From Coleofasciculus sp. FACHB-1120 (GTDB lineage: Bacteria > Cyanobacteriota > Cyanobacteriia > Cyanobacteriales > FACHB-T130), in the NCBI RefSeq assembly GCF_014698845.1, contig NZ_JACJTV010000003.1, forward strand, positions 248,001 through 312,000: DNA of 64,000 nt, read 5' to 3'. The notes beneath the pieces are model-generated. The model was given only the letters and a program-made list of their open reading frames with translations, had not been told where the DNA came from and made no database searches. Made by a program: the position numbers and the translations under genes. Shown in pieces: positions 1,710 to 19,030 of the stretch. Position 1 is the first letter of the stretch. Each line of letters begins with the position of its first letter.

Positions 1710-1768
1710 GAGGTTAGTCCTTTCATTTCAGTCCTTAAATATTTAACCTAGCTAAAAATAAGGTCTCT

Positions 1769-3322
1769 TTACTGGAGAAGATAAACCTCGGCAACTTGAG
1801 TTTCTAAAACCGTACTATGAGCTCGTGTTAAATCTGGATTTCTATAAACATTAAAAACAGGAAAAAGGTTATCAGTACGTTGTACCATGTAGGATTTTGG
1901 ATAAATTAGGTAGTTACCTGCTTGACAAAAAGTTTTAACAATATTGAAATTCTTTTTAGTAATGTATTGATCAATATATTTATAAGGCTGGTACATGGAC
2001 ATCCAACCGACAGGTTTCGGATCAAATGTACAGATTGTTGAGTTTGCAGGTAATTGACTTAAAATTTGAGTAATATCAGAAGTAGATACCAGTCTATTTT
2101 GGCTATATTTGCTGGTTAAATACTGATAGTCATGGCTTGTATTAATCAAGATTGACAACACAATACCTGTAATTAAAAAAGCCCCCAACGACTTATCCGT
2201 TTTCCTAGATAAATCTAAGTAAGCTAGGCTCAAAATAGTCAAAATTATTGGGGAAATTAAAACTAAAAGCTTGTAATGAATGTAATAAACTCCTTGATAA
2301 TTTGAAGCAGCATATAAATAAATAGACCAAGTAAATGCTAAAAAAGCAAAAATAGTTTTGTTTCCTTTGAATTTGGCTATTCCTACCGTTAAAACCACTG
2401 CTAAGAAAATAATAGAAATTAAAATATAAAACCAACCTTCTCCGGTAAAGTAGGCTTGTTGTCCTAGTTCAACATAATTAAAGACCAGCCTACCCATCTT
2501 ACTCAAAACATTAGAAGGAGCTTCTTGATTAGAGCTGGTTAAAGTAGCAATAATTTGTTTGGTATTTAACCAACCGCGACTAAGCTCTCCTTTCCAATAA
2601 GGAAACAAAGCTACAAATGCTGCTAAAACGGACAAGATAGGTAGTAAAAACCTAATAGGAGTTCTGCGGTTTTTTGAGATGAATAAAATAGAGCTGGCAA
2701 TAAAAACTACTGGCATTACAAAAAGAGTTGTGGAATGTAAGCTAATTAATATTGCTAAAACAATTCCATAAAGTATCCAGGAGAAGCATTGAGGAACCAG
2801 AGAAAATCTAGTTTCCAACTGGTATTTATAGAGTAGAGTAAAACAAAGCAGAAAAAATATAATAGGACTGGGGTTCCACTGAAAAGTACTTATAAAAATT
2901 TCTCCAAAAATTAGACTGTACCATAAACCCGCTAAGCCTGCCAGAAGAAGGCGTTTTGAAAACTCAACATTTTCTAATAGTTCATAAACTAAATATATTA
3001 AAAGCGGAATAGATAAAAAAGAGAATAAAGCATTAGGTATAGCTGTAAAAACTGGATCTGAGCCAAATATAGTAAAAGGAAAAACTAGATAATAATAAAG
3101 AGGCGGTAGATGATATCCTCCGACCGAGGCAGAAGGACCTAATATAGGCCAATTTCCTTGCCACATCTTCATGTAGATTTCAGCATCTCTGGCCTGATCG
3201 TAATAAAAAAAAGTGGTATATCTGAGAACACTGAATAGGCGTATCAAAAAGCCAAGAAGTAAGGATAATGCGATTAAAGTATATGCAGTAATGTTGGCTG
3301 GATTCTTCTTAAGATTGAACAC
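1769..3322 (-). CDS. GT-C fold membrane glycosyltransferase (ArnT/PMT-like)
   Basis: A 517-residue polytopic membrane protein with about ten hydrophobic segments and a soluble C-terminal part of roughly 110 residues. After the first helix it carries YYDQARDAEIY (D42, R45, D46), which matches the acidic first-loop motif of PMT-superfamily glycosyltransferases, followed by GYHLPPLYYYLV, a conserved second motif of the group. The start codon is GTG. It lies between other GT-C genes on the same strand with short gaps (59 nt to the next gene downstream) and is probably co-transcribed with them. It is more AT-rich than the genes upstream of 7 kb. Family assignment is good; the substrate is unknown. 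Confidence 0.8.
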   Translation of the reverse strand: MFNLKKNPANITAYTLIALSLLLGFLIRLFSVLRYTTFFYYDQARDAEIYMKMWQGNWPILGPSASVGGYHLPPLYYYLVFPFTIFGSDPVFTAIPNALFSFLSIPLLIYLVYELLENVEFSKRLLLAGLAGLWYSLIFGEIFISTFQWNPSPIIFFLLCFTLLYKYQLETRFSLVPQCFSWILYGIVLAILISLHSTTLFVMPVVFIASSILFISKNRRTPIRFLLPILSVLAAFVALFPYWKGELSRGWLNTKQIIATLTSSNQEAPSNVLSKMGRLVFNYVELGQQAYFTGEGWFYILISIIFLAVVLTVGIAKFKGNKTIFAFLAFTWSIYLYAASNYQGVYYIHYKLLVLISPIILTILSLAYLDLSRKTDKSLGAFLITGIVLSILINTSHDYQYLTSKYSQNRLVSTSDITQILSQLPANSTICTFDPKPVGWMSMYQPYKYIDQYITKKNFNIVKTFCQAGNYLIYPKSYMVQRTDNLFPVFNVYRNPDLTRAHSTVLETQVAEVYLLQ

Positions 3323-3378
3323 TAGTTTAACCCTATTCCTTAAAAAATTTATTTTTTCTTTTTGTCGCTAAAATTAAT

Positions 3379-4908
3379 TTAATCTGCCATTTTGCTAATA
3401 ACTTCCAGATTGAAAATTTTCCGAATAGATAGGTACATCATCAACAATAAAAAAGCAACTGAAGTCGCTACTAGATACCAAGGAATACCGATAAATACAA
3501 GAGAGTTAGGCCAGAGATTTACAGTATGACTACCGTATGCTTCTATGCCAGAATTTAAATACCATAAATTTTGGTTTTGAATTCCTGGAGAATGGGTAGC
3601 AATTTTAAAAGAAGTGAGAAGATTTCTCGCTGCACTCTTCAACATATCCAATGACTGGCTATTTGAGAACTTCCAGACATAGGCTACTTCATCTTTTCGA
3701 GCAAATTCTAGTCTCCAGTACCAATGTGAAATAATTGATGACAATGAGATAATGAAACCAAAACCAGCTAGAAAAATTGCTGAGAGCCTTAAGGAGGTTC
3801 TTTGTAAAACATATTCCATATTAGTTGCAAAGGGCAAAAAGAGAATGGGTATGATAGTCACTAGATAACGGGGACCCCATCCCCCACCACCATACCAACT
3901 CCTCAACCTTGCATGGAGTAGAAACCAAGCTATTGTAAGTACCAATATATACAAAGCTTCTTTTTTATGCTCCTTAAAAAATTTTCTAAATAGAACAACA
4001 GATAGGATTAATAAAGGAGCATATATAAATAGGCTTTTTCCAGGACTCAGCAAAAGACCTGTTAATCCTATAAAAATATTTCCATCCAACGCATTGTTAG
4101 CCAAATACTTGGCATCTGTTTGAACCGGAGAAAGGTGGAAAAATCCAGTTCTTAGATGGTTATACCAAGATTGCCATACTAAAAAAGGGAAGATTATCAG
4201 TAATGCAGTAGCGACATTCTTTACTCGGCTTATTAAAGATGGTCTGCTAATAAGCACTAGATAACCAAGTGAAGCTACTATAGCTAAAATCATTGAGATC
4301 CTGGTAATCAAAGAAAACCCCAAACAAATAAAAGCCAATATTAAATATTGATTTTTTTTGTTGTTTCTAAAATTTAATAACAACAGAAAAGATGTAGTCA
4401 ATAATGTAGAACAGAGAACTCCATCAAAGGATTCCCTAGTATAAGTCCAAAAATAAGTGCTAATAGCTAGAGACAAGGTTGCTAGAAAGCTGGGTAAGAT
4501 AGCTTGACCAAACTGAAACCGCAAGATACCGAAAAAAGCAGTGATTGTAAGCGCCGAATAAAATCCAGGTTGAAACGAACGTATAAATTCTTTCGTTATA
4601 GATATAGCTTTCACCGTAGTGAAAGGAGATAAAATTCTTTCTAAAATTACATTAAAAAAGGCAGTGGGTAGAAAAAATATTGTATTTCCAATTTCTTGGG
4701 AAGCATAGGTCCTCCCATTGGGCGCTATTGAAAAAATTCCCTCTTGTGGAGTATCAAAACCTAGTTCTCCTGTAGTAACAATATGCTCTGCAAGTTTGTA
4801 GTGAAAGGAGCCTTCTGCATAATCAAATCCGCAATTAGTAAGAGCAAAAAATGCCCAGAAAAAACAAAATATGCTTAAACAAATTTTAAAGCTTGAGTTT
4901 TTAATCAT
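3379..4908 (-). CDS. Polytopic membrane protein, probable GT-C glycosyltransferase
   Basis: From the Met at 4908 the protein is 509 residues; an upstream in-frame start at 5010 would add a basic 34-residue tail that does not look like part of the family. The first helix is followed by NCGFDYAEGSFHYKLAEHI, an acidic first-loop segment as expected for polyprenyl-phosphate-dependent GT-C enzymes, then a soluble loop and about ten membrane helices. A Trp/Gly/Tyr-rich segment (RSWYGGGGWGPRY) lies near residue 340. It is the most divergent of the four GT-C genes and could also be an uncharacterised membrane protein of the same fold. It sits between two paralogous glycosyltransferases, which supports a role in building the same surface glycan. 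Confidence 0.65.
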   Translation of the reverse strand: MIKNSSFKICLSIFCFFWAFFALTNCGFDYAEGSFHYKLAEHIVTTGELGFDTPQEGIFSIAPNGRTYASQEIGNTIFFLPTAFFNVILERILSPFTTVKAISITKEFIRSFQPGFYSALTITAFFGILRFQFGQAILPSFLATLSLAISTYFWTYTRESFDGVLCSTLLTTSFLLLLNFRNNKKNQYLILAFICLGFSLITRISMILAIVASLGYLVLISRPSLISRVKNVATALLIIFPFLVWQSWYNHLRTGFFHLSPVQTDAKYLANNALDGNIFIGLTGLLLSPGKSLFIYAPLLILSVVLFRKFFKEHKKEALYILVLTIAWFLLHARLRSWYGGGGWGPRYLVTIIPILFLPFATNMEYVLQRTSLRLSAIFLAGFGFIISLSSIISHWYWRLEFARKDEVAYVWKFSNSQSLDMLKSAARNLLTSFKIATHSPGIQNQNLWYLNSGIEAYGSHTVNLWPNSLVFIGIPWYLVATSVAFLLLMMYLSIRKIFNLEVISKMAD

Positions 4909-5068
4909 TTTGGCTCTTTTTATATTGAGGCAAGTTATTTTAAATTTTATCGGTAATAGTTTAACTTTTAACTGCTTGGCATTGTTCTCTTTTTGTACAT
5001 AACGTAGCAATTGATTTGTTGAATTCCCAGATGAGGATAAAACTCCAATGTCTTAATGCATAACTTTT

Positions 5069-6781
5069 TTAATTATTTTTTAAAATTTTTTCTATTTTCC
5101 AAATCGATCTAGTAGGCATATTAAAGCCAGGTTTTAGTTCCACACGAGGATCGTAAACAAGCTTCATTGTATAGTTTGGCTGCTTATTAAGATTACTTCT
5201 AAATGTTTTATTAGGTTGAATGATAAATACATCACTAAAATTATCAGGAATTTGTGGGATGTCTTTTTGTTGAAACAGAAACTGAATTTGTACTTTTGGT
5301 TCTAGTAAACGGGCGATAGGCATTATATAGTTACCGTTTGTGCCAAATTTATCGGAAAATCGATAGAACAAAAGAGGTCGCTCAGCTTTGTTAATAATAT
5401 GGCTAATCGAGTAAGTGTCGTAGTTATGAATTTTATTCCACCAAGCTACTGATTGAGAGCTGACTGCACAGGATAAAACCCCGCCCGAAAGTAGTAAAAC
5501 TAAAGCAAACTGCCATACCTTCTGTTGCCAGATACTTGCAGCGATAGAGTTAATTTGAACGGCGAAACAATAAGCAACAGTTAGCTGAATTCCCAAGAGG
5601 CAAGGAATGAAATAGCGAGTCATAGCCGATCGTTGCCCTCCTGAAACTAAATCTGGTAGAGCGATCGCTAACGCTGTAACTCCAATAAGAGTCAAGATAA
5701 ATAGCCAAGCCCGCTGAGAAGTTTTCTTACAGAGGAAATCAAGTGAATATCCCACCAAAATTACAAATGCGAGACTCAAATATAGTAGTGGTTCGCGCAG
5801 ATTGAGAGGATACCGACAATATGAAGTCTCCAAACCAAAACACCAGCCTCGATCTAAATCGAAAAAAATCCGGCTGAGACTAATAAGCCAACTTTTAATT
5901 AAAGATGACAGGCTCGGATGCGAATAAGCCCATGAGGTCGCTTCCTGCAAGTTAGACCGATCCAGATAGGTAAGAATAACTAAAACCCACGGGATGAAAG
6001 CTAGAGCTCCCAACGCCGATGATATTAAATAGGCAATAAACGTTTTACTTAAGCGGAACCTTTCAATTACCGCTACATAGATGGCATGGGAAATTGCAAC
6101 CAAGGCATGAAATAAATGAGAATATAAGCCTAACGATACAGTTGCTGCATAAATTCCCCAACTAAGTTTGGTCTTGACGCGCATTGCTCGCAACAGTGCC
6201 GCACTTGATAGCAAGATAGTCACTATCCATAGACTATACTGCCGCGCTTCCTGAGCGTAAAGAACATGGAAGGGTGAGATCGCTACCAATGCGATCGCTA
6301 TCAATCCTACTAACGATGCGTCAAATAATTCTTTGGATAACCAATAAATGCAGGGAAAGGCTAGCAAGCTAATCAAAGCCGACAAACTTCTGATCGCTGC
6401 TACATCACTACCAAACCACTGCACCCAAAATCGAGCCATCAGGTAGTAGAGTGGTGTATGCTCAGGTCTTCCTGCTAAAACCTTAATTGTATCACCCAAG
6501 TTTTTTTCAGGATTGGGTCGCTGATACTTTAGCAAATCATCAACACTAACTATTTTTCCATTGCGAAAATCTCCATTGCGGAATTCTTGGATAAGCTCTA
6601 ACTCGGTATAACCAGAAATTCTTAAGGAAGTGGAAGTCTCGTCAATCCAGTAAACTTTGCGATCGAGATTGACGAATCGGAAGAACACGCCTAATACTAA
6701 CAAGCTGACAATTAAAAACTGCAAAGCAGTTAGAGTAAGCTTACTATCCTTTCTCAATTTGATTTCCATAATTTTTAGCAT
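5069..6781 (-). CDS. GT-C fold membrane glycosyltransferase (PMT/GT39-like), copy 2
   Basis: A 570-residue paralogue of the gene at 63-1709. The first helix (about residues 18-35) is followed by VYWIDETSTS with the catalytic-type pair D47-E48, then HTPLYYLMARFW and about ten membrane helices. It should transfer a sugar from a polyprenyl-linked donor on the periplasmic side. The duplication is not tandem: two unrelated GT-C genes now separate the copies. ATGs at 6781 and 6769 are both possible and neither has a good ribosome binding site. It lies 286 nt downstream of the HTTM-DCC gene in the same orientation. Confidence 0.85.
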   Translation of the reverse strand: MLKIMEIKLRKDSKLTLTALQFLIVSLLVLGVFFRFVNLDRKVYWIDETSTSLRISGYTELELIQEFRNGDFRNGKIVSVDDLLKYQRPNPEKNLGDTIKVLAGRPEHTPLYYLMARFWVQWFGSDVAAIRSLSALISLLAFPCIYWLSKELFDASLVGLIAIALVAISPFHVLYAQEARQYSLWIVTILLSSAALLRAMRVKTKLSWGIYAATVSLGLYSHLFHALVAISHAIYVAVIERFRLSKTFIAYLISSALGALAFIPWVLVILTYLDRSNLQEATSWAYSHPSLSSLIKSWLISLSRIFFDLDRGWCFGLETSYCRYPLNLREPLLYLSLAFVILVGYSLDFLCKKTSQRAWLFILTLIGVTALAIALPDLVSGGQRSAMTRYFIPCLLGIQLTVAYCFAVQINSIAASIWQQKVWQFALVLLLSGGVLSCAVSSQSVAWWNKIHNYDTYSISHIINKAERPLLFYRFSDKFGTNGNYIMPIARLLEPKVQIQFLFQQKDIPQIPDNFSDVFIIQPNKTFRSNLNKQPNYTMKLVYDPRVELKPGFNMPTRSIWKIEKILKNN

Positions 6782-7067: not shown

Positions 7068-8903
7068 TCACTTGTTTAGTTCGGGATTCTGAGAGCAGGA
7101 TTGCTGCCAAGCGGGCTTATTTTCAACATTTTGAGGTTGACCGGGTGGCACGGTTCTCTCGGTCATAAAGTCAATTTCAAAGTTATCTAGTTGTTTTGAA
7201 CCTTGGTGCCGAGCGTTCCAGTCGCGGCAGAGGTATTGCCCATAGTAGGGATAAAGCTTTTTGCCGATGGCGCGATTGAGATTTATGAAATAGGTGCGCC
7301 ATTGCATATTTCGATAGAGGGTGTTTCGCATCTTTCGACTCGGCTTCTCCCAACTCACAGGATCGCCATTTCTCAGAACATCGACTTCAGTTCCATCTTG
7401 AAGCTTGCCTGGGATTACGTGCCAACCATCATCTCTGGGGGGAGCAGGGGCAAAAATGCTCCAAGATTGGTCTACCCTCAAAATGCGGCTAATCCAGTCA
7501 ATCGAATTTAATGCTTTTCGATTAAATTTTTCCGGGGAAAAACTTCTGAAGTTCCAGATAGTGACATAAGCTAGCAAGAGTAACGTCACTATATTCATCG
7601 GTCGTGAAGAACGCACCTCAAGGGGACGGAACTTGAAGGGTTTGGTGAAGTTACCAGCAGCCCTACGGTTAGATGCAATTGTCTCGTAAAATTTCGTTCC
7701 TACAGACATTACGGGTCCCCATTTGAGAAGGGGAACCAGTGGTTTAAATATTGGGGATAAACTACAGACGTAGGCGATCGCTTCCCACTTAAAATGCCTG
7801 TTTCCTTGCCAATCCACGACTACCCAAGAATTTTTCGCTTGCATATCTGCAAAAATCGAGGGATCGTCCTGAGCTAAAAGCAGTGGCGTCTGTGCAGGCA
7901 ATATCAAGAAAGTGCGAATCAGGTGGACAACCTTCTTGCAGAAGCCGCAGTCGGCATCGTAGTAAATCTGGAGTCCGGCTCTTTCTGGAGTATACAGCCG
8001 CTTAGATACCGAGTCCCACACTTCAGTTGGGATGAAAGCTAGCCAGCTGGCTGTACTGAGAAAAGGGAAAATCCCCAGCACAAACGACAAGCCAAACCCG
8101 ATATGTAAGAGGATAAACGAGATGATTGCACAGCAGCGGAAAAAGCTGGTACGGAAGGGAACGAAGAGGAACAGGGGACCGATTGCTTCCAACGATAGGG
8201 CGCTAAAGGTGAGCAGGACTAAAAGTGCAGAAGGTAAACTAAGTAGGAATTGACCAAAGGGTGTAGCGTATTGGTCGAAACTCAAAGCGTAGTAAACCGC
8301 ACTGCCATTAGGCCACCAAAGCGGACTCTTCGCTTTAAAAGCCGCCGAAAAGATGTAGATAAAGCATTGCTGTAGCGTCAGTGCTAGGGTGGCACCGGAG
8401 AGGATACGCTTGGGTAATTTTTGGGTGGATGTATTCAGGGCACTATCCATAGAGTAATAAGCACCCAAGGGCAAAAACATTGACCAGAAAAGCAGGGCGC
8501 GAAGTACATCATCCGCCGCAAAAATCAAAGCTGGGTTCCGGTTGTGGAGAGATACCATCAGTGCCCAAGTTGCGATCGCTGCCAACCGAGTTCGATATCC
8601 CACCAACAGCGCTAAAGCCACGAATCCAGCCAACAAAAACAGAATAACTTGAAACCAGGTTTGACCGCCCAGCGCATGAACTGACCAATACCAAGGTTTT
8701 AAGATAGTAGCTAGTAGCGATCGCGGCATCACCCCAGCATCGGTATAATGTGCTGTCAGATCCCCCGCCCGAATGATTAAATCGGCAAGCACAACCAGCG
8801 CCAAGCCAATCCGAAACAGGGCTAGCGATCGCAGGTCTAACCCAAACAGTTGCTCAAGCTTGGAAGTAAAGATGGCTTTAGATTTTTGCTGAGTAGAAGC
8901 CAT
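7068..8903 (-). CDS. HTTM domain-DCC thiol-disulfide domain fusion membrane protein
   Basis: A 611-residue protein with three parts. Residues about 15-290 form an HTTM (horizontally transferred transmembrane) domain, recognisable by LFGLDLRSLALFRIGLALV near the start and several membrane helices; this domain is homologous to the membrane part of vitamin-K-dependent gamma-glutamyl carboxylase. Residues about 310-430 are a DCC-type thiol-disulfide domain opening with YYDADCGFCKK, with the CxxC cysteines C319 and C322. The C-terminal part is soluble with a Pro- and Trp-rich stretch. The substrate is unknown. It follows the type II NAD(P)H dehydrogenase-like gene on the same strand, so a quinone- or thiol-linked redox role is plausible but inferred. 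Confidence 0.8.
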   Translation of the reverse strand: MASTQQKSKAIFTSKLEQLFGLDLRSLALFRIGLALVVLADLIIRAGDLTAHYTDAGVMPRSLLATILKPWYWSVHALGGQTWFQVILFLLAGFVALALLVGYRTRLAAIATWALMVSLHNRNPALIFAADDVLRALLFWSMFLPLGAYYSMDSALNTSTQKLPKRILSGATLALTLQQCFIYIFSAAFKAKSPLWWPNGSAVYYALSFDQYATPFGQFLLSLPSALLVLLTFSALSLEAIGPLFLFVPFRTSFFRCCAIISFILLHIGFGLSFVLGIFPFLSTASWLAFIPTEVWDSVSKRLYTPERAGLQIYYDADCGFCKKVVHLIRTFLILPAQTPLLLAQDDPSIFADMQAKNSWVVVDWQGNRHFKWEAIAYVCSLSPIFKPLVPLLKWGPVMSVGTKFYETIASNRRAAGNFTKPFKFRPLEVRSSRPMNIVTLLLLAYVTIWNFRSFSPEKFNRKALNSIDWISRILRVDQSWSIFAPAPPRDDGWHVIPGKLQDGTEVDVLRNGDPVSWEKPSRKMRNTLYRNMQWRTYFINLNRAIGKKLYPYYGQYLCRDWNARHQGSKQLDNFEIDFMTERTVPPGQPQNVENKPAWQQSCSQNPELNK

Positions 8904-9009: not shown

Positions 9010-10335
9010 TCACCGCTTTCTCGAACTCTTGAACCCCAGCCTGACTAACTGCCGCTGGATCGCCGCTAGCCACTTCCAGACTGTTAAGATAACCCGTCGA
9101 ATCGCTTGGTGAATCCAATTTCTCACCACTTGGAGGCGGTGAGGCACGGTTGGCAACCGCTGGAGGTAAACGACTTGTCTGGTAATCGATGCCAAGCGCC
9201 CTTCTAAATTCAGACCAAAGCTAGAAACCGCAGCTGCACCCTTTCCTAACGTCACCATCTCTCCCAAGTGCAAGTAGCGGAAGCGCCGTAAGCGTTTGCC
9301 TGCAATCGCTGCCCAAATGTTGCGAGCAGCACAATCTGCCTGTTGAAAAGCGGCTTGAGCGGTTGCTGGCACCCGTGAGCCACGAGGATTGTAAATTTCC
9401 GCCAAATCCCCCAAAGCAAAAACTTCTGGATAGTCAACTAACTGTAAGGTAGGGCAAGAAATCAGTTGTCCTTGGTTATTATGCTGGCAATCAAGTTCGC
9501 GCACCCAATCGATCTGACGGGTTCCAGCCGTCCAAAATACTAAATCTACAGGCAAAGTTTTAATCTGACCCTCCCGAATCAGGGTAATTTGGTCAGGTTC
9601 AATGCAGTGGATGCTTGTTTCTAACTCTACACCCACACCACGAGTTGATAAAGCACGGTGAGCCGCAGCTTGAGTATGGGCGGAAAAGGTTTTTAAAATT
9701 TGATTGCCCCGGTCAATCAGCAGTACCTGCCCTCGTTTCTGTAGCCGGTCGGCGATTTTGCAAGCGAGTTCTACGCCATTAGGACCAGCGCCCGCGATCG
9801 CAATCCGAATGCTTTCCCGGTCGGACATCTCAAACTCGCGTAGCTGTTGTTTCAGAAGCTCTACATCCGCCAAACTGCGAAAGGTTTGGGCATAAGTACC
9901 AGCTCCGGGAACGCCTTCTAAGCGCGTCTCTCCCCCGACTGCCAAAACGAGGTAGTCGTAAGCAAGACCCTCACCGGATTCAAGCTTTACCTGGCGCGTT
10001 TGTAAATCAACCTCCTGAATTGTGTCTTGACAAAACCGAATATTAGTGTTCTTTAATAGCTTTTGATAAGAAGGAGCAATTTCCCACGCTTGCAATTCAT
10101 CTGTCACCAGTTCGTATAGCAAGGGGGTAAACAGAAAGCGATCTTTCTGCTCAACTAGGGTAATTTCGCATTGACTTGATTTGAGTAAGGGAAAACGGCG
10201 CAGGTACAAAGCAGTGTAAAGACCGCCAAAGCCCCCACCGAGAATGCAAATCCGGGTGGGAGTGGCGCTCCCAGAGTTAGAAGGGGCAGAACTGACCCTT
10301 CTCTGATGCCTTGTACTGTCTAGCTTGCCGTCCAT
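9010..10335 (-). CDS. NAD(P)/FAD-dependent oxidoreductase, type II NAD(P)H dehydrogenase family
   Basis: 441 residues. The N-terminal FAD-binding Rossmann motif is ILGGGFGGLYTALYL (near residue 32) and a second dinucleotide-binding motif IAGAGPNGVELACKI lies near residue 178. TPLLYELVTDE and the late FALGDLAEI segment are characteristic of NDH-2 enzymes, which pass electrons from NAD(P)H to a membrane quinone without pumping protons. The C-terminal 40 residues are basic and amphipathic, as expected for peripheral membrane attachment. Cyanobacterial members include the demethylphylloquinone reductase NdbB; this gene may be that type, but orthology needs a tree. It lies between the SGNH-like gene and the HTTM-DCC gene on the same strand. 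Confidence 0.85.
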   Translation of the reverse strand: MDGKLDSTRHQRRVSSAPSNSGSATPTRICILGGGFGGLYTALYLRRFPLLKSSQCEITLVEQKDRFLFTPLLYELVTDELQAWEIAPSYQKLLKNTNIRFCQDTIQEVDLQTRQVKLESGEGLAYDYLVLAVGGETRLEGVPGAGTYAQTFRSLADVELLKQQLREFEMSDRESIRIAIAGAGPNGVELACKIADRLQKRGQVLLIDRGNQILKTFSAHTQAAAHRALSTRGVGVELETSIHCIEPDQITLIREGQIKTLPVDLVFWTAGTRQIDWVRELDCQHNNQGQLISCPTLQLVDYPEVFALGDLAEIYNPRGSRVPATAQAAFQQADCAARNIWAAIAGKRLRRFRYLHLGEMVTLGKGAAAVSSFGLNLEGRLASITRQVVYLQRLPTVPHRLQVVRNWIHQAIRRVILTVWKWLAAIQRQLVRLGFKSSRKR

Positions 10336-10397: not shown

Positions 10398-11363
10398 CTA
10401 TTGCGGCACTTTAGTTGGGGAGTTGGGTGTTGTCAGTTGCGAAGCGATCGCTGGTTTTAGCTGTTGAACCAGCTCCATTGCCCGGATGGTTCTGGCTTCC
10501 GGCTTCAAGTGATAGTGGGTATCGGCAAACAAGCTAGAGTCATCTTTCAAGTTCAACGAGTCTTTTTCGTAGAGCAAAGGAGCGATTTTGCTCAGTTCCT
10601 CAGCCGTCTTTTTAACGTTACGAATCGTCTTCTCGTCGCTGCTGTTCGCATATACCCACGGCAATGACAGCACTAAAGTCGCTCCCTTTGCCTCGACTTC
10701 TTTGCGGAATTTAGCGATCCGCTGAAGCGCGTGTTTGGATACGGGTTCTTGAAATGTCATCTGCCACCACTTCCCAGCGCGTTCTTTCGTCACTGTGGGG
10801 TCGCCACGTTCGTCAACCGGATCGGAGTAGTAGCCGGTCATTTTTCCATTTTCCATCACCTCCAAGCTTGACTTAGTAATTCCTCTTAGAGTGGGAACCC
10901 CTAGCATCATTGCGTCTAGAGCCAACTGCTTGGGAGGGATACCTCCTAAACCGGGCTGTCCAATTGCCATCCCAAATGAACCAGAGCGATCGCCCAACCC
11001 ATCCTCATCCAACAGCAGTAGGTACTCTGGAATCAGAAGTACAATGTCGCCCCGGCGAACTTGGCTCAATACGCTCGGAAGGATGACATCTAGACCAATT
11101 GGGCCATCTAACCCCATGTTGAATACGGGAATGCCGAGTTCTTGCTCCATTAGCTTGGTATTCAACGTATAGTGCGCTCCAGAACCACCCGTTATCAGCA
11201 GGCGGTGGGGTGCTTCAATTTGGCTTGCCAGCGCCACCTTGCGTTCGTACATAGCACGCAGCCAGCTCAGTTCTCCGCCGTAGCGAACGTTATAAAGGTA
11301 CCCAACAGACCAGGCTAAGCCAGCAACCGCTATCCAACTCGCAAGCTTTAGAGGTTTCCACAT
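10398..11363 (-). CDS. SGNH-hydrolase-like membrane-anchored protein (AlgJ/DltD-like partner of MBOAT)
   Basis: 321 residues with an N-terminal membrane anchor (about residues 5-25) and an extracytoplasmic domain. S61 lies in LLITGGSGAHYTLN, at the place of the SGNH nucleophile, and DTHYH near D281 resembles the DTHW motif of alginate acetylation proteins AlgJ/AlgX. Such proteins accept an acyl group from an MBOAT partner or pass it to a polymer. The start ATG overlaps the MBOAT stop codon by one base (TAATG), so the two are translationally coupled. This coupling is the strongest context evidence for function. The family is very divergent, so the hydrolase fold is inferred from motifs and position. 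Confidence 0.7.
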   Translation of the reverse strand: MWKPLKLASWIAVAGLAWSVGYLYNVRYGGELSWLRAMYERKVALASQIEAPHRLLITGGSGAHYTLNTKLMEQELGIPVFNMGLDGPIGLDVILPSVLSQVRRGDIVLLIPEYLLLLDEDGLGDRSGSFGMAIGQPGLGGIPPKQLALDAMMLGVPTLRGITKSSLEVMENGKMTGYYSDPVDERGDPTVTKERAGKWWQMTFQEPVSKHALQRIAKFRKEVEAKGATLVLSLPWVYANSSDEKTIRNVKKTAEELSKIAPLLYEKDSLNLKDDSSLFADTHYHLKPEARTIRAMELVQQLKPAIASQLTTPNSPTKVPQ

Positions 11364-12826
11364 TAGAACTCGAAGTAAATAAATTTAGAGGGGGTATTTG
11401 CAGCTAGCAAGATGGTCAAACCCAACAGAACGCGAGTTACCCAAGGAGATAACAGCAAATCATATTCATTCGTCCGTTTCTGCCAAACAGCCAGGTGTTC
11501 CAGGAACAATTCCACCGTTGTGAGAAAGAGGATCAAAACTAAGACAGCTCCCTCATTCTGGCTAAAGGAACTCATTGCTTCCCCCAAATTGGAGAACGAG
11601 TACGCCCAAGGCGTCACCAGTGTTTGCAGCTTCTGTCCCAGTCGAGTCATATCTGACTCCATGAAGAACAGACAGCCAAGCATCACCGAACCAAATGTTA
11701 GCGCCCACGATAAGAACTGAGGCATGAATAGGCGTTCGCCAACGAATCGGTAAAAAGGGCGACCCGCATATCGCAAAACTAGCAGTAACAAGCCATGATA
11801 GGCACCCCAAATGATGAAATTCCAAGCGGCTCCGTGCCAAAAGCCTGAGAGCGTAAACGTGACGAACAGATAGAAGGCAGCCCACTGCTTCTTTGCGCCC
11901 ATTAGGGGGAGGAAAACGTAGTCTCTAAACCAGGTACTCAGCGTCACGTGCCAGCGACGCCAAAATTCTTGGATGCTGGGTGAAGTGTAAGGGGCGATGA
12001 AGTTGAGTGTTAGCTGAACGCCTACAAATTTAGCTAAACCTAGTGCGATGAAACTATATCCAGCAAAATCAAAGTAAATCCTCAGAGTGAACAAGTAGAT
12101 AGATAACCACACCAGCCAGACATTTCCTGTTTCTTGCAAGTTGATGTACGGCGACAAGTTATCTGCCAGTACCAACTTCATAAACAAGCCCAAAGACAGC
12201 CACTTGAGACCATCCTCAAAGTTTTCTGCGGAGAACTTAAAGCGGAATGATTCAATTTGAGGAAACAGATCAGCTCGACGCTCAATCGGACCAGCGACGA
12301 CTTGCGGGAAGAAGGAAACAAAGTTGATGTAATCAACAACTCCAATTGGCTGCTTCTTTTTGCTTTTGAATGAATCCACGACAAAAGCAACCATCTGGAA
12401 GGTGTAGAACGAAATGCCTGGAGGAATTGCACCTGCGCCGGGAATGCCGCCTCTCTGCTGCCAACTCTCAGCAACCCCCCCTACAAATAGTCCCAGAACA
12501 TCTTCCACAAAGAAGTTCACGTATTTGAAGTAGGCAAGGATGGCGACGTCGATCCCGATTACCACGGCTGCGATCGCTTGCGACTCCCAACCTCGACGGC
12601 GCAACATCAGCCGCACCATCAAGTAGTTCAAGATAATCTCAAAGGCGAAGATAATAAAGCTGGATCGCGACGCATTTACAAACAGCATCAGCGACAGCAC
12701 CATCAACCCAATGCTATCAAAGTAATCTCGCCAAATGTTCAGGTACTTGCCGATATAGCGAACCGTGAAGAGGGGAACGCTGATTAAAAGAAGTACCCAC
12801 CAGAAGGAGAAATCAGAGAAATTCAA
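11363..12826 (-). CDS. MBOAT family membrane-bound O-acyltransferase
   Basis: 487 residues with about eleven membrane helices. The MBOAT signature is clear: SGFWHGAAWNFIIWGAYHG contains the conserved histidines H331 and H344, and RWHVTLSTWFRDYVFLPL is the typical upstream motif. MBOAT proteins of the DltB/AlgI/PatA group move acyl groups across the membrane onto extracellular polymers or lipids. The start is a TTG at 12826, supported by a GGGAGG ribosome binding site at 12837-12842, ten bases upstream. It is preceded by the carrier protein gene and coupled to the SGNH-like gene, which matches the DltC-DltB-DltD arrangement. Confidence 0.9.
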   Translation of the reverse strand: MNFSDFSFWWVLLLISVPLFTVRYIGKYLNIWRDYFDSIGLMVLSLMLFVNASRSSFIIFAFEIILNYLMVRLMLRRRGWESQAIAAVVIGIDVAILAYFKYVNFFVEDVLGLFVGGVAESWQQRGGIPGAGAIPPGISFYTFQMVAFVVDSFKSKKKQPIGVVDYINFVSFFPQVVAGPIERRADLFPQIESFRFKFSAENFEDGLKWLSLGLFMKLVLADNLSPYINLQETGNVWLVWLSIYLFTLRIYFDFAGYSFIALGLAKFVGVQLTLNFIAPYTSPSIQEFWRRWHVTLSTWFRDYVFLPLMGAKKQWAAFYLFVTFTLSGFWHGAAWNFIIWGAYHGLLLLVLRYAGRPFYRFVGERLFMPQFLSWALTFGSVMLGCLFFMESDMTRLGQKLQTLVTPWAYSFSNLGEAMSSFSQNEGAVLVLILFLTTVELFLEHLAVWQKRTNEYDLLLSPWVTRVLLGLTILLAANTPSKFIYFEF

Positions 12827-12887
12827 TTGACTGTTTCCTCCCTATTCTTTAGGGTTTAAAAGTTAGTATCTTATCGAGTTTTTAGCG

Positions 12888-12998
12888 ATTGGTAATTAGT
12901 TATCAGGAATGGGTAATCGTTTATTGTCCAAAGTTGAAGATTTACAGTTTCCACAATAACGGACAAAATTTTTAACCAGTTACCGATTCCCAATTACC
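12888..12998. repeat. Inverted repeat region between carrier-protein and MBOAT genes
   Basis: The 190-nt gap between these genes holds nested inverted repeats. GGTAATT near 12891 pairs with AATTACC near 12993, and TTATTGT near 12921 pairs with ACAATAA near 12953. The sequence resembles the heptamer-type repeats seen elsewhere in the window. It could act as an attenuator or simply be a repeat insertion. Confidence 0.5.
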
Positions 12999-13015
12999 AA
13001 CCCATTTATCTTTCT

Positions 13016-13468
13016 CTAGCTGCCGCTAATCCGGTTCCACAGACCGCCCCAACCAGAAGACTTGGAAGATGCCTCTACTTTTTCAGTTTTGTCGCTACCA
13101 GCATCCTTGACATTGCTAGACGCAACTGGAGAAACTGCCGCTGAGACATCAAACTCTTTAACCAAGTATTCAGCAGATTTTTCAATAGTCGGATAATCCC
13201 ACAGCAGAGTAGAAGGAAGCTCGCATCCTAGCCAATCTTCTAAATCGCCAACCAAGGTGACAGCATCGATGGAATCTAGACCGTAGCGCGTCAAAGGTTC
13301 GCGAACATCAATGGTTTTTGCATTGAGTGAAAGTTGCTTAGAAAGCTTGGTAACTAGCCAAGTTTGAATCGCTTCAGCCGGGGAGTTTTCAACAATCATA
13401 TTGTCGTCTTGTAAATGGTTTTTGCTTAAATCTTCACTAGGCTTGGAGCTGGAGTTCTGAAGCTGCAT
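13016..13468 (-). CDS. Acyl carrier protein with long C-terminal tail
   Basis: 150 residues, about twice the usual carrier length. Residues about 30-110 form the carrier domain with YGLDSIDAV, where S66 is the expected 4'-phosphopantetheine site. The C-terminal 40 residues are Ser/Ala/Lys-rich and end in GWGGLWNRISGS, a Trp-containing stretch that could touch membrane or a partner protein. The ATG at 13468 has a strong GAGGAG site (complement of 13476-13481), so the coding sequence overlaps the end of the upstream flavoprotein gene by 32 nt and is probably translationally coupled to it. In context it should be loaded by the FAAL and modified by the phosphopantetheinyl transferase at 18272. 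Confidence 0.88.
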   Translation of the reverse strand: MQLQNSSSKPSEDLSKNHLQDDNMIVENSPAEAIQTWLVTKLSKQLSLNAKTIDVREPLTRYGLDSIDAVTLVGDLEDWLGCELPSTLLWDYPTIEKSAEYLVKEFDVSAAVSPVASSNVKDAGSDKTEKVEASSKSSGWGGLWNRISGS

Positions 13469-15245
13469 GGGTTTTCTCCTCTGGTGATTGGGCTTGGGCT
13501 AGTTGGAGGGGGACAATCGAAAACATCTTGTTTTCTCTGTCAAGCTTGAGAAGCTCTTGGGCAACATTTTCGATGTAAATGCTAGGAATGATACCTGATG
13601 AAGGACGAAAAGTCATCAGCAGTCTGTTAAGACAAATTGCCAACCATTCACCTTTAGCAAAAAAGCCACCTAAGATTTTTCGGTTGTAAACCCACATATG
13701 TACACAAGCTGCTGCTGCATGCAATGTGCAGTACTTTTTGGCTAGTTCAAATGACTCTGGAGACTGATCGTGCCCGTATTCAAAGCCTGAGCTTGCCAAG
13801 AATTCATCCTGGGCGTCGAGTTCTTCGAGAACAGTGCTTGTCAGTGTTATCAGCTTCTGCAACACTTCAGCATCGACACTAGCATCCGTCTTTAAACCAT
13901 ACAAGTGTTCTAGAGAGATTTCTAGACCTTGTAAAACGTCATCGCATCCCCGACTGAACAGCTCAAATTTCGCCCGTTCGCAGGGCGGCAGCGGTGCTTC
14001 TAGAGAAAATCTGGATTCTAGACGCGATCGCAATTTTTCATAAGTGGCAGCATTTCTTTTCGCCCGGTATTTCGCCATCTGACGAAGCTGTAAAATCAGC
14101 GCGTGCAAGTTGACAACCGTACTGCCATCAAACACGCTAATAATGGCATTATCTCGAACAACCTTTTGGAAAATCCCTTCATCGTGACCTTCGCGCAAAT
14201 AAAAGCGTGCCCCTAGAATTACGGAAAGGTTTTGAACAACCTTTTCCACAGCCGTCGGCACAAAATATTTCACGAAGATAGATGAAACGCTAGATTGCTC
14301 CGGCGCGACATGAAAACTTCTTGCCCCCGCAATTGTGACACAATCGCAGACCAAAATATCTAAAAAAGCCTCTACTAAAGTAGTCCGAGGGTGGGGAATA
14401 TCGAAAACTGTTTTGCCATACAGTTTCCGGCCTAGAGCAAATTTCAGCACCGTTCTAAGTGCTGTATCCGCAGAGCCTAAAGAAAAAGCTGCACACAACG
14501 TCCGGGTTAGGTGAAAGCCTTTCAGCCCCAATTCTAAACCCGCGCCTTCTTGCCCCAGACGCATTTCTTCAGGCACAAAGCAATTATCAAAACGGATTCC
14601 GCTCATGTCAGAACCGCGAATTCCCAAAGTCTTTATCTTAGGAAGATTGGAATAACCCGCTGGATCGATTTCACTTTTATCAACAACAAACAGAGACAAG
14701 CTACGTGCCCCGCCACTATCATCTGTTTTGGCAAGCACAACCGAGATTCCAGAAATGGTCGCTCGGTTAATTGGCCATTTTTCCCCATTCAGGAGATAAC
14801 CACCAGGAACCTTAGTTGCCTGGACATCGCTGCCAACCAGGTCGCTGCCGTGTGCCCTTTCTGAATAAGCAAGACACATGGCACCATGCTTATCTTTAAT
14901 AAACTTTGCCAGCTTTTGTTTCTGTTCGTGGGTGCCTGCCATCCAAACTAAACCAGACCAGAAAAGCGTACTAAAAGTTATCGATGTCGTGAGGTCACGT
15001 CTGGATAAAACTCTAACAAAAGCGACGAATTCCTCATAAGATTTCAGCTCTCCACCATATTCCACGGGGATGTGGTAGTGATGAAGATTCCAGTTATAAA
15101 GCCATTCAACGTCTTTTTCTGGAAATTCTTCGCGCTCATCTAACTCCATGACGCTTTTGAAGGACATCACGCTTTCCGGCTGTGTTGGATCGCCTAAATC
15201 CTTTTCGAGCGCTTCAGCGACCCAGTACTGTTTTAGTTGATGCAT
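13437..15245 (-). CDS. Acyl-CoA dehydrogenase-like flavoprotein
   Basis: 602 residues from the ATG at 15245, which has GGAG six bases upstream. An in-frame start at 15302 would read through a heptamer repeat and is unlikely. The N-terminal and middle domains carry acyl-CoA dehydrogenase motifs such as CLAYSERAHGSDL and GYLLNGEKWPINRA. Where many members have a catalytic Glu in a YEGT motif, this protein has VFDGSTVVNLH, so Asp may replace Glu or the base lies elsewhere. The C-terminal 200 residues are an extension. In this operon it probably oxidises an acyl chain held on the carrier protein rather than free acyl-CoA, as known for PltE/RedW-type enzymes; this is inference. Confidence 0.85.
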   Translation of the reverse strand: MHQLKQYWVAEALEKDLGDPTQPESVMSFKSVMELDEREEFPEKDVEWLYNWNLHHYHIPVEYGGELKSYEEFVAFVRVLSRRDLTTSITFSTLFWSGLVWMAGTHEQKQKLAKFIKDKHGAMCLAYSERAHGSDLVGSDVQATKVPGGYLLNGEKWPINRATISGISVVLAKTDDSGGARSLSLFVVDKSEIDPAGYSNLPKIKTLGIRGSDMSGIRFDNCFVPEEMRLGQEGAGLELGLKGFHLTRTLCAAFSLGSADTALRTVLKFALGRKLYGKTVFDIPHPRTTLVEAFLDILVCDCVTIAGARSFHVAPEQSSVSSIFVKYFVPTAVEKVVQNLSVILGARFYLREGHDEGIFQKVVRDNAIISVFDGSTVVNLHALILQLRQMAKYRAKRNAATYEKLRSRLESRFSLEAPLPPCERAKFELFSRGCDDVLQGLEISLEHLYGLKTDASVDAEVLQKLITLTSTVLEELDAQDEFLASSGFEYGHDQSPESFELAKKYCTLHAAAACVHMWVYNRKILGGFFAKGEWLAICLNRLLMTFRPSSGIIPSIYIENVAQELLKLDRENKMFSIVPLQLAQAQSPEEKTHAASELQLQA

Positions 15246-15257
15246 TGAATTCTCCGT

Positions 15258-15285
15258 GTAATCGGTAATCGGTAATCGGTAATCG
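15258..15285. repeat. Heptanucleotide tandem repeat, four copies
   Basis: Four perfect head-to-tail copies of GTAATCG. It sits between the FAAL stop and the ATG of the flavoprotein gene. It matches the short tandemly repeated repetitive (STRR) heptamers known from cyanobacteria. Confidence 0.9.
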
Positions 15286-15305
15286 CAATTAGCAATTCCC
15301 AATCG

Positions 15306-17150
15306 CTATTTAGGAGTTTGCACTTTCTGTAACAGGGATTCTACTTCTCCCTGGAGACTTTGAAACTTTGCCGTAGCTTGAGGATTTTCGCTCCAATCCG
15401 CGACGACATCCAGACTTCCTGCCAAGAAAGCGGCTCGGCAACCTTGACGCTGAATCTTGCCGCTAGAAGTTTTTAGGATACTCCCAGGCTTCACCAATAC
15501 CACAGCATAAACCTGTAGCTCGTGCTGTTCCGATACCACCTGACGGATGGCTCCGATCACCTCATTGTTGTCTAGATTCTGGGTATGGCGCTCGACTTCC
15601 TGGACAATTACCAGTCGCTCCTCGCCGTTCACCATCACTGAAAACGCTGCACCATGTTCGGGTCGAAGCGCTGCATGACTTTCTTGCACCGTCCATTCAA
15701 TATCTTGAGGATAGTGATTGGTGCCTCGGATGATAATTAAATCTTTGATGCGCCCCGTGATAAACAGCTCGCCATCTTTTAAAAATCCCAAATCGCCGGT
15801 ACGTAGAAATGGTTCTTCATCTGTATCTGCGATGCGTGCCCGGAAGGTGCGTTCCGATTCTTCGGGTCGCTGCCAGTAGCCGTGAGCCACGCTAGGATCG
15901 GATACCCAAATCTCTCCGACTTCATCAGCAGCACATCGGGTGAATTTCTCAGGATGCACGATCGCTATCTTGGTGTCGCAAACTTTAGTTCCGCATCCGA
16001 CAACTGTCCGCACAATATCTTGATTTTTGGAGGCTGGAACAACGCGATTTTTCTCTAATGCTGCCGGATCGAGATTGCACAAAACGGGCGTTGCGGTTTG
16101 TGCAGAGAAGGATACTAATAAAGTTGCCTCAGCCAATCCGTAGGCAGGACAAAAGGCATTCCACTGAAACCCAGATGGTGCAAAAGTTTCGTAAAAACTT
16201 TCCATGACTTGGGGGTTAATTGGCTCGGCGGCATTGCCTGCTGCACGCCAACTACTCAAGTCTAGGGTGGCGCGTTGTTCTGGTGTAACCCTCCGCACGC
16301 ATTGATCGTAGGCAAAGTTAGGACCTTGGCTATGGGTCACTTTGTATCGCGAAATTGCCTGGAGCCAATGGAACGGACGTTTGATAAAGGCGAAGGGTGA
16401 CATCACGTAGCAGGGGATGCCGTTGTAGAGGGGTTGGAGGAGTCCTTCGACCAGTCCGTAATCGTGGAAGTAAGGCATCCACGCCACAGTTACGCTGTCT
16501 GGAGTGTAGCCACAGGCTTTTTGGAGGTTCGCTGAGTGAAACATCACGTTGCCGTGGCTGAGCATTACACCTTTGGGAGTGGAGGTAGAGCCTGAGGTGT
16601 ACTGGAGATACGCCAGCATATCGCTGGTTGCAGCGGGATCTTTCCAGGTCTCAGCCAGAGACAGGTCTACCTGCTCGGTGTCAATCCAGCGCATTGCCTG
16701 AAATTCTGGAATCTTCTCGTCGTACTCTTCAACTAGGGAAAGAATTCCAGAGGTAGTTAGCACCAATGAGGCTTGGGCATCTTTCGCGATCGCTTGCAGT
16801 CTAGGCAAAGTTCGCTTCAGTCGCCCCGCTTCCGGTGGGGGTACGGGAATAGCAATCGTTCCAGCGTATAAACAACCGCAAAAAGCGGCAATAACCTCTA
16901 GGCCTTGTGGATAAAGCAGTAGTGCCCGCTCTCCCCTTGCATTATGCTGTTGTAGCAAGGCAGCGATCGCTCTCGCTTGACGATCGAGCTGAGCATAAGT
17001 GAGCTGGGAACCTTCTTTCTTGCCATCAATCAGAAAAGTATAGGCTACCTTTTCCGGCTGCTGGAGTGCCCTCCACCGCAGCAGTTCAACTAGGGTAGAA
17101 AAATTTTGAGTTGTAGAAGAATTAATATCGCCAGGTGTAAGGGTGTTCAT
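15306..17150 (-). CDS. Fatty acyl-AMP ligase (FAAL), AMP-binding enzyme
   Basis: 614 residues from the ATG at 17150; a GTG at 17198 would add 16 residues. The adenylation signature YTSGSTSTPKGVMLSH lies near residue 155, and GLAEATLL, RTGDLGFL and GRIKDLIIIRGTNHYPQDIE follow in family order. The TSGSTSTPKG core and the NHYPQDIE motif are typical of the FAAL branch, which activates fatty acids as acyl-AMP and hands them to a carrier protein rather than CoA. SSGKIQRQGCRAAFL near the C-terminus contains the conserved Lys. It starts the five-gene acyl-transfer set; no ketosynthase or peptide-synthetase domain is nearby. The chain specificity cannot be read from sequence. Confidence 0.92.
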   Translation of the reverse strand: MNTLTPGDINSSTTQNFSTLVELLRWRALQQPEKVAYTFLIDGKKEGSQLTYAQLDRQARAIAALLQQHNARGERALLLYPQGLEVIAAFCGCLYAGTIAIPVPPPEAGRLKRTLPRLQAIAKDAQASLVLTTSGILSLVEEYDEKIPEFQAMRWIDTEQVDLSLAETWKDPAATSDMLAYLQYTSGSTSTPKGVMLSHGNVMFHSANLQKACGYTPDSVTVAWMPYFHDYGLVEGLLQPLYNGIPCYVMSPFAFIKRPFHWLQAISRYKVTHSQGPNFAYDQCVRRVTPEQRATLDLSSWRAAGNAAEPINPQVMESFYETFAPSGFQWNAFCPAYGLAEATLLVSFSAQTATPVLCNLDPAALEKNRVVPASKNQDIVRTVVGCGTKVCDTKIAIVHPEKFTRCAADEVGEIWVSDPSVAHGYWQRPEESERTFRARIADTDEEPFLRTGDLGFLKDGELFITGRIKDLIIIRGTNHYPQDIEWTVQESHAALRPEHGAAFSVMVNGEERLVIVQEVERHTQNLDNNEVIGAIRQVVSEQHELQVYAVVLVKPGSILKTSSGKIQRQGCRAAFLAGSLDVVADWSENPQATAKFQSLQGEVESLLQKVQTPK

Positions 17151-18215: not shown

Positions 18216-18271
18216 GGATTGGTTCCCTATGGGAGATAACGACAGGCTCAGATTGATGATAGATCGGATTG

Positions 18272-19030
18272 ATGAGTGATATTGATTGTGTGTGGCGTCC
18301 TCCACCAACCGACTTAGTGCTATCGAGCAATGATGTCCATGTCTGGCGTGCTTCCCTCGACCAATCGGCATTTCACGTTCAGCATCTGCAACAAATCCTT
18401 TCTGAAGATGAGCAAATAAGAGCTGAGCGTTTCCACTTCGAGCGGGACAGGAAGCGTTTCATCATTGGGCGGGGTCTGCTCAGGACAATTCTGGGTTGCT
18501 ACTTAGAAATCAATCCAGTCGAGGTGCAATTTTGCTATGGCTCCCGTGGCAAACCAGCATTGGCTGGAACGCACGCAGAAAGTAACCTTCGGTTTAATTT
18601 ATCTCACTCTCAGGATATCTGCCTGTATGCAATAACACGCGATCGCCAGATCGGTGTCGATGTTGAATACATTCGTTCTGTTACTGAAGTTGAAGCGATC
18701 GCTAAACGGTTCTTTTCGGCGCGAGAAAATGCCGTTTTGCGTGCTTTGCCTGCAAATCAGAAGCAGCAGGCATTTTTAAACGCTTGGACTCGCAAAGAAG
18801 CTTATCTAAAAGCAATTGGAGAAGGGCTAGCTCGACCTCTAGATCAAATTGAAGTAACGCTGGCTCCAGAGGAACCAGCGATGCTGCTGAGCATTGAAGG
18901 CGATCGCTTTCAATGCGATCGCTGGTCACTCCAAGAACTGACACCGGAACTCGACTACATAGCCGCTCTGGCTGTGGAAGGAAGTGGCACTTGCACCCGC
19001 TGCTGGCAATGGGTGGATAAAAACGGCTAA
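18272..19030 (+). CDS. 4'-phosphopantetheinyl transferase, Sfp/HetI type
   Basis: 252 residues from the ATG at 18272. The family motifs are complete: IGVDVEYI (Mg-binding Asp and Glu) and WTRKEAYLKAIGEGL, plus RFIIGRGLLRTILG and FNLSHSQD upstream. Sfp-type enzymes transfer phosphopantetheine from CoA to a Ser of carrier proteins. It is divergent from the FAAL cluster and the obvious candidate to activate the carrier at 13016-13468, but such enzymes often serve all carriers in a cyanobacterium. HIP1-like octamers are frequent in the coding sequence. The next gene (cysK) is convergent. Confidence 0.93.
   Translation: MSDIDCVWRPPPTDLVLSSNDVHVWRASLDQSAFHVQHLQQILSEDEQIRAERFHFERDRKRFIIGRGLLRTILGCYLEINPVEVQFCYGSRGKPALAGTHAESNLRFNLSHSQDICLYAITRDRQIGVDVEYIRSVTEVEAIAKRFFSARENAVLRALPANQKQQAFLNAWTRKEAYLKAIGEGLARPLDQIEVTLAPEEPAMLLSIEGDRFQCDRWSLQELTPELDYIAALAVEGSGTCTRCWQWVDKNG

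Follow-up and report, generated by a model that had tools for sequence, protein, structure and literature searches.

The window analysed here, a whole stretch of 64,000 nucleotides from Coleofasciculus sp. FACHB-1120 (contig NZ_JACJTV010000003.1, positions 248,001 to 312,000), carries on its minus strand a conserved unit of seven genes, running from position 17150 down to 7068. They encode a fatty acyl-AMP ligase (FAAL)-like protein, an acyl-CoA dehydrogenase (ACAD)-like flavoprotein, an acyl carrier protein (ACP), an MBOAT acyltransferase, a protein modelled with an SGNH fold, an NDH2-like oxidoreductase and an HTTM membrane protein with a DCC domain, in the order FAAL-ACAD-ACP-MBOAT-SGNH-NDH2-HTTM/DCC:

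15306..17150, minus strand: FAAL-like ligase, the predicted carrier-protein loader (Pfam AMP-binding, 2e-67)
13437..15245 (from the first ATG), minus strand: ACAD-like flavoprotein of 602 aa (Pfam Acyl-CoA_dh_M, Acyl-CoA_dh_1 and Acyl-CoA_dh_N)
13016..13468, minus strand: ACP, with the phosphopantetheine Ser in GLDSIDA (Pfam PP-binding, 2.1e-15)
11363..12826, minus strand: MBOAT acyltransferase (Pfam MBOAT, 8.9e-25), with invariant H331 and C-terminal FIYFEF (Y484)
10398..11363, minus strand: protein with an SGNH fold in the predicted model and a hydrophobic N-terminal helix; S61, D281, T282 and H285 invariant
9010..10335, minus strand: NDH-2-like quinone oxidoreductase, the pathway copy of the two in the window's genome
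7068..8903, minus strand: HTTM membrane protein with a predicted fold like that of vitamin K-dependent gamma-carboxylase (GGCX), plus a DCC thiol-redox domain (CGFC) at about residues 310-415

An earlier note, made from the sequence alone, had described the first five of these genes as a row on one strand. All five are real, correctly placed minus-strand frames of the expected families, although the conserved unit holds two genes more, the NDH-2-like and HTTM-DCC ones. The overlaps it reported were also right: one base between MBOAT, whose start codon is TTG preceded by AGGGAGG, and SGNH, and 32 bases between the dehydrogenase (ACAD) and the carrier (ACP). Both frames were called in 24 other loci (L024, with its ACP frame uncalled, is left out of the count): the overlap is again 32 bases in 14 of them, measures 23 bases in five and takes other values in five, two of which lack an overlap.

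Gene order was compared across 26 other ACAD loci, 14 from a scan of the phylum and 12 from a contig scan with exact peptide patterns, which reaches close relatives only. All seven genes stand in order in seven loci (L024, L030, L033, L034, L038, L039, where SGNH is duplicated, and L040), while single loci hold FAAL to SGNH (L035) and FAAL to MBOAT (L036). Nine loci carry ACAD-ACP-MBOAT-NDH2 (L025, L032, L041-L044, L046, L048 and L049); for several of them little sequence was available upstream, and a more distant FAAL is possible there. Three others are a locus at a contig edge (L045), one with a broken ACAD and no MBOAT (L047) and one that belongs to a different cluster (L037). Overall, ACAD-ACP-MBOAT are consecutive in 18/26 loci, and ACP adjoins ACAD in all but L045, which ends at the contig edge (25/26). 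All named relatives of the locus come from cyanobacteria, Coleofasciculus and Crocosphaera among them, except for one Chloroflexaceae metagenome-assembled genome.

Co-inheritance was assessed in a single set of 292 genomes from the phylum, using E-value thresholds chosen to part orthologs from paralogs. MBOAT orthologs were detected in 14 genomes (1e-110) and SGNH orthologs also in 14 (1e-15), and the two genome sets are identical. FAAL matches are found in 45 genomes at 1e-180, and the best 14 of them (61-100% identity) fall exactly in the MBOAT set. ACAD is present in 15 (E up to 1e-60), the 14 plus G229, and HTTM in 18 (1e-70), the 14 plus G145, G215, G096 and G106. The NDH2 family is common (103/292 at 1e-95); two NDH2 matches occur in 19 genomes, including all 14, and each of the 14 has one copy beside a pathway gene, a placement read from coordinates. 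If two sets of 10 genera were drawn at random from 116, the chance that they coincide would be about 10^-13.9, a value that ignores phylogeny and serves as a guide only; the genomes are not independent of one another, and many assemblies are in pieces.

This shared distribution does not depend on linkage. In nine of the 14 genomes the pathway genes are spread over two to four places: SGNH-HTTM and FAAL lie apart from ACAD-ACP-MBOAT-NDH2 in G105 and G143; ACAD-ACP, MBOAT-SGNH-NDH2, HTTM and FAAL are all apart in five genomes of genus g22; NDH2-HTTM is apart in G131; and SGNH-NDH2 and HTTM are apart in G111. The arrangement in G235 and G237 was established partly from coordinates only. Six g22 loci have a GC content of 0.416-0.445. 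Presence is also patchy within genera, since G191 of genus g6 has the pathway and G019, G024 and G042 are without it, and G111 of genus g26 has it and G123 does not; the pathway genes therefore seem to be gained and lost together. In genus g32, the 4.8 Mb genome G143 has the pathway, and at least three genomes of 2.8-3.1 Mb (G147, G183 and G268) are not among the matches; these small genomes are perhaps reduced endosymbionts.

The co-occurrence elsewhere on which the earlier note had made its proposal depend is thus borne out, and the proposal was not refuted by the test that the note itself had set. That the best FAALs and ACAD(-ACP) accompany the pair in all 14 genomes argues for ACP as the putative donor of the acyl group. 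We give hardly any credence to the idea that MBOAT and SGNH work as an ordinary pair for acetylation, with FAAL, ACAD and ACP serving another pathway: it could draw on the ACAD-ACP genes found without a nearby MBOAT and on the same type of end motif in other MBOATs in or near the loci, but MBOAT, SGNH and the best FAALs keep to the same genomes even when unlinked, and the run of ACAD, ACP and MBOAT is consecutive in most loci.

By sequence, the ligase belongs to the FAAL group of adenylating enzymes, as the earlier note had it. It scores 332.6 bits against the solved FadD32 and 85.7 bits against 4-coumarate CoA ligase. Models of fatty-acid--AMP ligases match it at 349-468 bits, below their curated cutoffs, and far higher than the D-Ala-specific DltA model, which reaches 100.4 bits against a cutoff of 476. 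The phosphopantetheine Ser of the ACP is kept in 25/25 sequences. As in Dlt systems, a dedicated carrier protein accompanies MBOAT and SGNH, ACAD being present in 14/14 genomes that have both.

The ACAD-like protein has the three domains of the family (Pfam N, M and C-terminal). Its closest solved relatives are acyl-CoA dehydrogenases, compared with which it is longer. The TamT dehydrogenase of tambjamine biosynthesis occupies a similar place in its pathway and is predicted to desaturate a carrier-bound chain, according to the available part of PMC5939613; the ACAD-like protein would probably add a double bond to the ACP-bound chain. One locus outside the 14 genomes bears on this parallel. L037 (3601-13610, in G229) contains two FAALs, an ACAD of 48% identity, an ACP, a class I/II aminotransferase and a short-chain dehydrogenase/reductase, a set reminiscent of fatty-amine formation in tambjamine biosynthesis. 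One could suppose that FAAL-ACAD-ACP feeds the making of an amine or a peptide, a role of the kind proposed for TamA/TamT, given that in L037 these genes lie beside an aminotransferase and a reductase much like TamA/TamT/TamH (PMC5939613, in the part available). At the thresholds used, however, G229 yielded no ortholog of MBOAT or of SGNH, its nearby MBOAT showing 31% identity, and no aminotransferase or nonribosomal peptide synthetase (NRPS) domain was found at the other loci among the 20 neighbours scanned, which are a part of all neighbours; as an account of the conserved unit we regard it as very unlikely.

The MBOAT and SGNH proteins would fit acyl transfer across the membrane. The C-terminus of the MBOAT reads FIYFEF in 21 of 22 aligned sequences and FIYFSF in the other, so that FXYXXF is present in 22/22, together with the catalytic His, H331, invariant in the same alignment. 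In PatA, the acetyl group is carried on the Tyr of a C-terminal FXYXXF, and in Dlt the same motif, in DltX, carries the acyl group (PMC12148441, in the part available). Frames of at least 80 aa were screened in the window, a limit that bears on any DltX-type microprotein. No Pfam match was obtained for the SGNH-like protein. Its AlphaFold model (pLDDT 84.7), with a hydrophobic N-terminal helix at residues 3-28, aligns with a GDSL lipase (VIA Z 13.2, root-mean-square deviation (rmsd) 3.5, 178 aligned) and with PatB of C. jejuni, CjPatB (VIA Z 11.9, rmsd 4.2, 170 aligned), and DltD is among its weak Foldseek matches (E 0.02). S61, D281 and H285, candidates for a Ser-Asp-His triad, are invariant in 16/16 sequences, as is T282.

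The two remaining proteins may have to do with quinone chemistry. The NDH2-like protein fits, by sequence, the family of type II NADH:quinone oxidoreductases; its best solved matches are 4nwz (1.9e-32), which we take to be an NDH-2, the NADH dehydrogenase-like YjlD (5.6e-30) and FSP1 (about 1e-10). That it might be a demethylphylloquinone reductase (NdbB/NDC1) is an assumption of ours and is not established. The protein at 7068-8903, for which we presume the name HTTM, has a model (pLDDT 84.2) whose Foldseek ranks 1-16 are all GGCX, 14 of them with E up to 0.001. Against this carboxylase the model gives VIA Z 21.7 (rmsd 6.3, 386 aligned), the next other chain reaching 7.4, and it is accordingly modelled as having a GGCX-type fold. 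The GGCX relation rests on the predicted fold, because sequence searches of the PDB (phmmer, and a profile up to E 10) gave no GGCX match. Pfam recognises a DCC1-like domain and, below threshold, LMF1; residues 306-390 give weak matches to glutaredoxin- and glutathione S-transferase-type folds (VIA Z up to 6.7), in agreement with the DCC1-like assignment. CGFC is present in 17 of 18 sequences, the 18 including L095 and L096, both without pathway linkage. K190 is invariant in 18/18, and a Trp comes five or six positions after it, a pattern read from the sequences.

HTTM proteins also occur outside the conserved unit. A second full-length HTTM/DCC of 59% identity is encoded in the window's own genome (L096 8372-10192; G000:C13:91874-93670), and the 19 kb fetched there contain no gene of the pathway. 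In G215 (L099 6530-9893), NDH2 lies next to a shortened HTTM/DCC, which seems to be missing the conserved Lys, with a phosphopantetheinyl transferase (PPTase) on the other side. At the thresholds used, this genome gave no match to ACAD, MBOAT or SGNH, and its NDH2-HTTM/DCC arrangement is possibly a remnant. In distant members of the phylum with genomes of 2.2-2.3 Mb, HTTM proteins of 45-46% identity (L100 8293-9801 and L101 8447-9943) give matches that stop near residue 300, with no CGFC motif visible.

What the analysis shows is which genes are present, that they are inherited together, the shuttle motif, the conserved positions and the folds as modelled; with these we regard it as reasonably probable that the seven genes encode a cyanobacterial pathway that attaches a fatty acyl chain to an acceptor beyond the cytoplasmic membrane. 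That this chain is fatty and unsaturated we infer from homology. By family, FAAL would adenylate a fatty acid and charge holo-ACP, and the ACAD-like flavoprotein would oxidise the ACP-bound chain, probably introducing a double bond. By analogy with PatAB and Dlt, MBOAT would accept the acyl group from ACP on the cytoplasmic side of the membrane and move it to its own Y484, in FIYFEF, on the outer side, and the SGNH protein, with its N-terminal helix as anchor, would pass it from the tyrosine to a glycan or lipid acceptor. In the weakest step of the scheme, the NDH2-like protein would reduce a membrane quinone for HTTM/DCC, which might modify the acyl group or the acceptor. A bolder version, which we hold to be distinctly unlikely, is that NDH2 and HTTM/DCC form a bacterial vitamin K-type cycle for lipid chemistry: phylloquinone would be reduced by NDH2, the GGCX-fold protein would use quinol and O2 to generate a carbanion on the acyl chain being exported, which may be alpha,beta-unsaturated, and would carboxylate this chain or alter it in another way, and DCC would help to recycle the quinone.

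Several observations weigh against the proposed acylation pathway. The ACAD-like protein has FDGS where its solved relatives have YEGT, Asp replacing Glu in the column that we take to be the position of the MCAD catalytic Glu; this holds in all 27 of the 29 alignment rows that cover the site, the other two being fragments, and ordinary dehydrogenation is not assured because of it. There is no electron transfer flavoprotein among the seven genes, and no search for one was made elsewhere. Only ACAD-ACP is found in five of the 26 loci (L026-L029 and L031). Five other MBOATs also end in FXYXXF (FLYFQF in four, FIYFQF in one), so the motif marks a class of mechanism and not a specific pathway. The DltB equivalog model TIGR04091 gives the window MBOAT 177.3 bits against a cutoff of 375, and it scores the pathway MBOATs at 176-177 bits, three paralogs at 154-160 and the L037 MBOAT at 140. 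The spacing of block V in the SGNH protein departs from the canonical DxxH, and no conserved acceptor-making gene was found among neighbours that, beyond the seven genes, were annotated in part. DltB orthology, suggested by the best NCBIfam match, was rejected, the paralog control showing this match to be non-discriminating. Of the Dlt-like acyl transfer put forward in the earlier note, the carrier-based MBOAT-SGNH pathway with a FAAL-like ligase is retained, and the resemblance to DltB has no discriminating value. The system is best read as working like Dlt, yet not as a member of the Dlt family.

Alternatively, the product could be a small exported lipid, with MBOAT and SGNH esterifying a small lipid or alcohol and not a surface polymer. 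Natural-product clusters typically start with FAAL-ACP, according to the part of PMC11837247 available, and the distribution over 14/292 genomes, with the uneven presence in genus g6, has the patchiness that would fit such a product. An FXYXXF MBOAT with an SGNH partner is, however, the arrangement of envelope acylation in characterised systems (PMC12148441, in the part available), and no NRPS or polyketide synthase domain was present among the 20 recurrent or large neighbouring proteins scanned. We consider this alternative unlikely but credible.

Two further features of the window are the following:

18269..19030, plus strand: Sfp/HetI-type PPTase, a divergent neighbour of the cluster
63-6781: four large membrane proteins (GT-C genes), one with a Pfam PMT_2 glycosyltransferase match

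A PPTase specific to the pathway was considered and rejected, with one match per genome in 11/11 genomes searched (11 of the 14), among which the gene adjoins the cluster in G000, the window's genome, and G060 only. Since it is the sole PPTase match in the window's genome, it is probably a general enzyme that also serves the pathway ACP. The GT-C glycosyltransferases, which the earlier note had proposed as makers of the acceptor glycan, were rejected as a conserved feature: tblastn of the four genes against the 26 neighbourhoods of 7-20 kb gave no match at 1e-5, and the segment, with a GC content of 0.362 compared with 0.48 for the cluster, is apparently of separate origin. The single echo is in G111 (L088), where HTTM is followed by an MBOAT paralog, a weakly DUF1574-like protein, a GT2 and, as the fourth gene, one whose protein shares 48% identity with the third GT-C. 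Most other neighbours were grouped by similarity only. In L038, L039, L040 and L088 the gene right after HTTM encodes a second MBOAT (33-35% identity), and a tocopherol cyclase gene lies two genes upstream of FAAL in L038 (25-1098), with a homolog at the same place in L039 (165-1265).

If correct, the proposed pathway would extend MBOAT-SGNH envelope acylation, which uses acetyl from acetyl-CoA in Pat and D-alanyl from a carrier in Dlt, to a FAAL-charged fatty acyl group, and it would join a carrier used as in Dlt to a tyrosine shuttle built into the MBOAT as in PatA. Linking a protein of GGCX fold with a defined bacterial pathway of seven genes would make the function of bacterial HTTM proteins directly testable. 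Were the quinone cycle also true, vitamin K-dependent chemistry would act on a fatty acyl group and be coupled to a Dlt-like export route. In the literature search, from whose coverage most subscription journals fall outside, no title or abstract describing this gene set was found, and the FAAL review PMC11837247 does not mention MBOAT in its main text.

Among known systems, DltABCD(X), which D-alanylates teichoic acids, shares with the conserved unit an adenylating ligase, a carrier, an MBOAT and an SGNH protein, and the proposed route from carrier to MBOAT and tyrosine and on to the SGNH serine. The differences are that the ligase here is FAAL-like, that ACAD, NDH2 and HTTM are added, that the host is cyanobacterial and that the shuttle motif lies inside the MBOAT, whereas in Dlt it is on the DltX microprotein. 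The peptidoglycan O-acetyltransferase PatA/PatB is similar in the C-terminal FXYXXF of its MBOAT and in an SGNH partner with an N-terminal helix, but PatA uses acetyl-CoA and no carrier, and other MBOAT-SGNH systems are likewise described without a carrier protein (PMC12148441, in the part available), whereas here FAAL and ACAD go with the pair. TamA/TamT of tambjamine biosynthesis resembles the unit in its fatty-acid ligase, ACP and FAD-dependent dehydrogenase, with a predicted unsaturated chain; it differs in its amine product, in TamA being a ligase-ACP fusion and in having no MBOAT-SGNH as described in the part of PMC5939613 available. Finally, GGCX resembles HTTM/DCC in the predicted fold of the latter, and HTTM K190 ahead of a Trp recalls GGCX K218/W223, where K218 is the base that deprotonates vitamin K (PMC12589487, in the part available) and H160 is the Glu-site His; the two differ in that identity over the structural alignment is 14% and that HTTM/DCC has an extra thioredoxin-like DCC domain.

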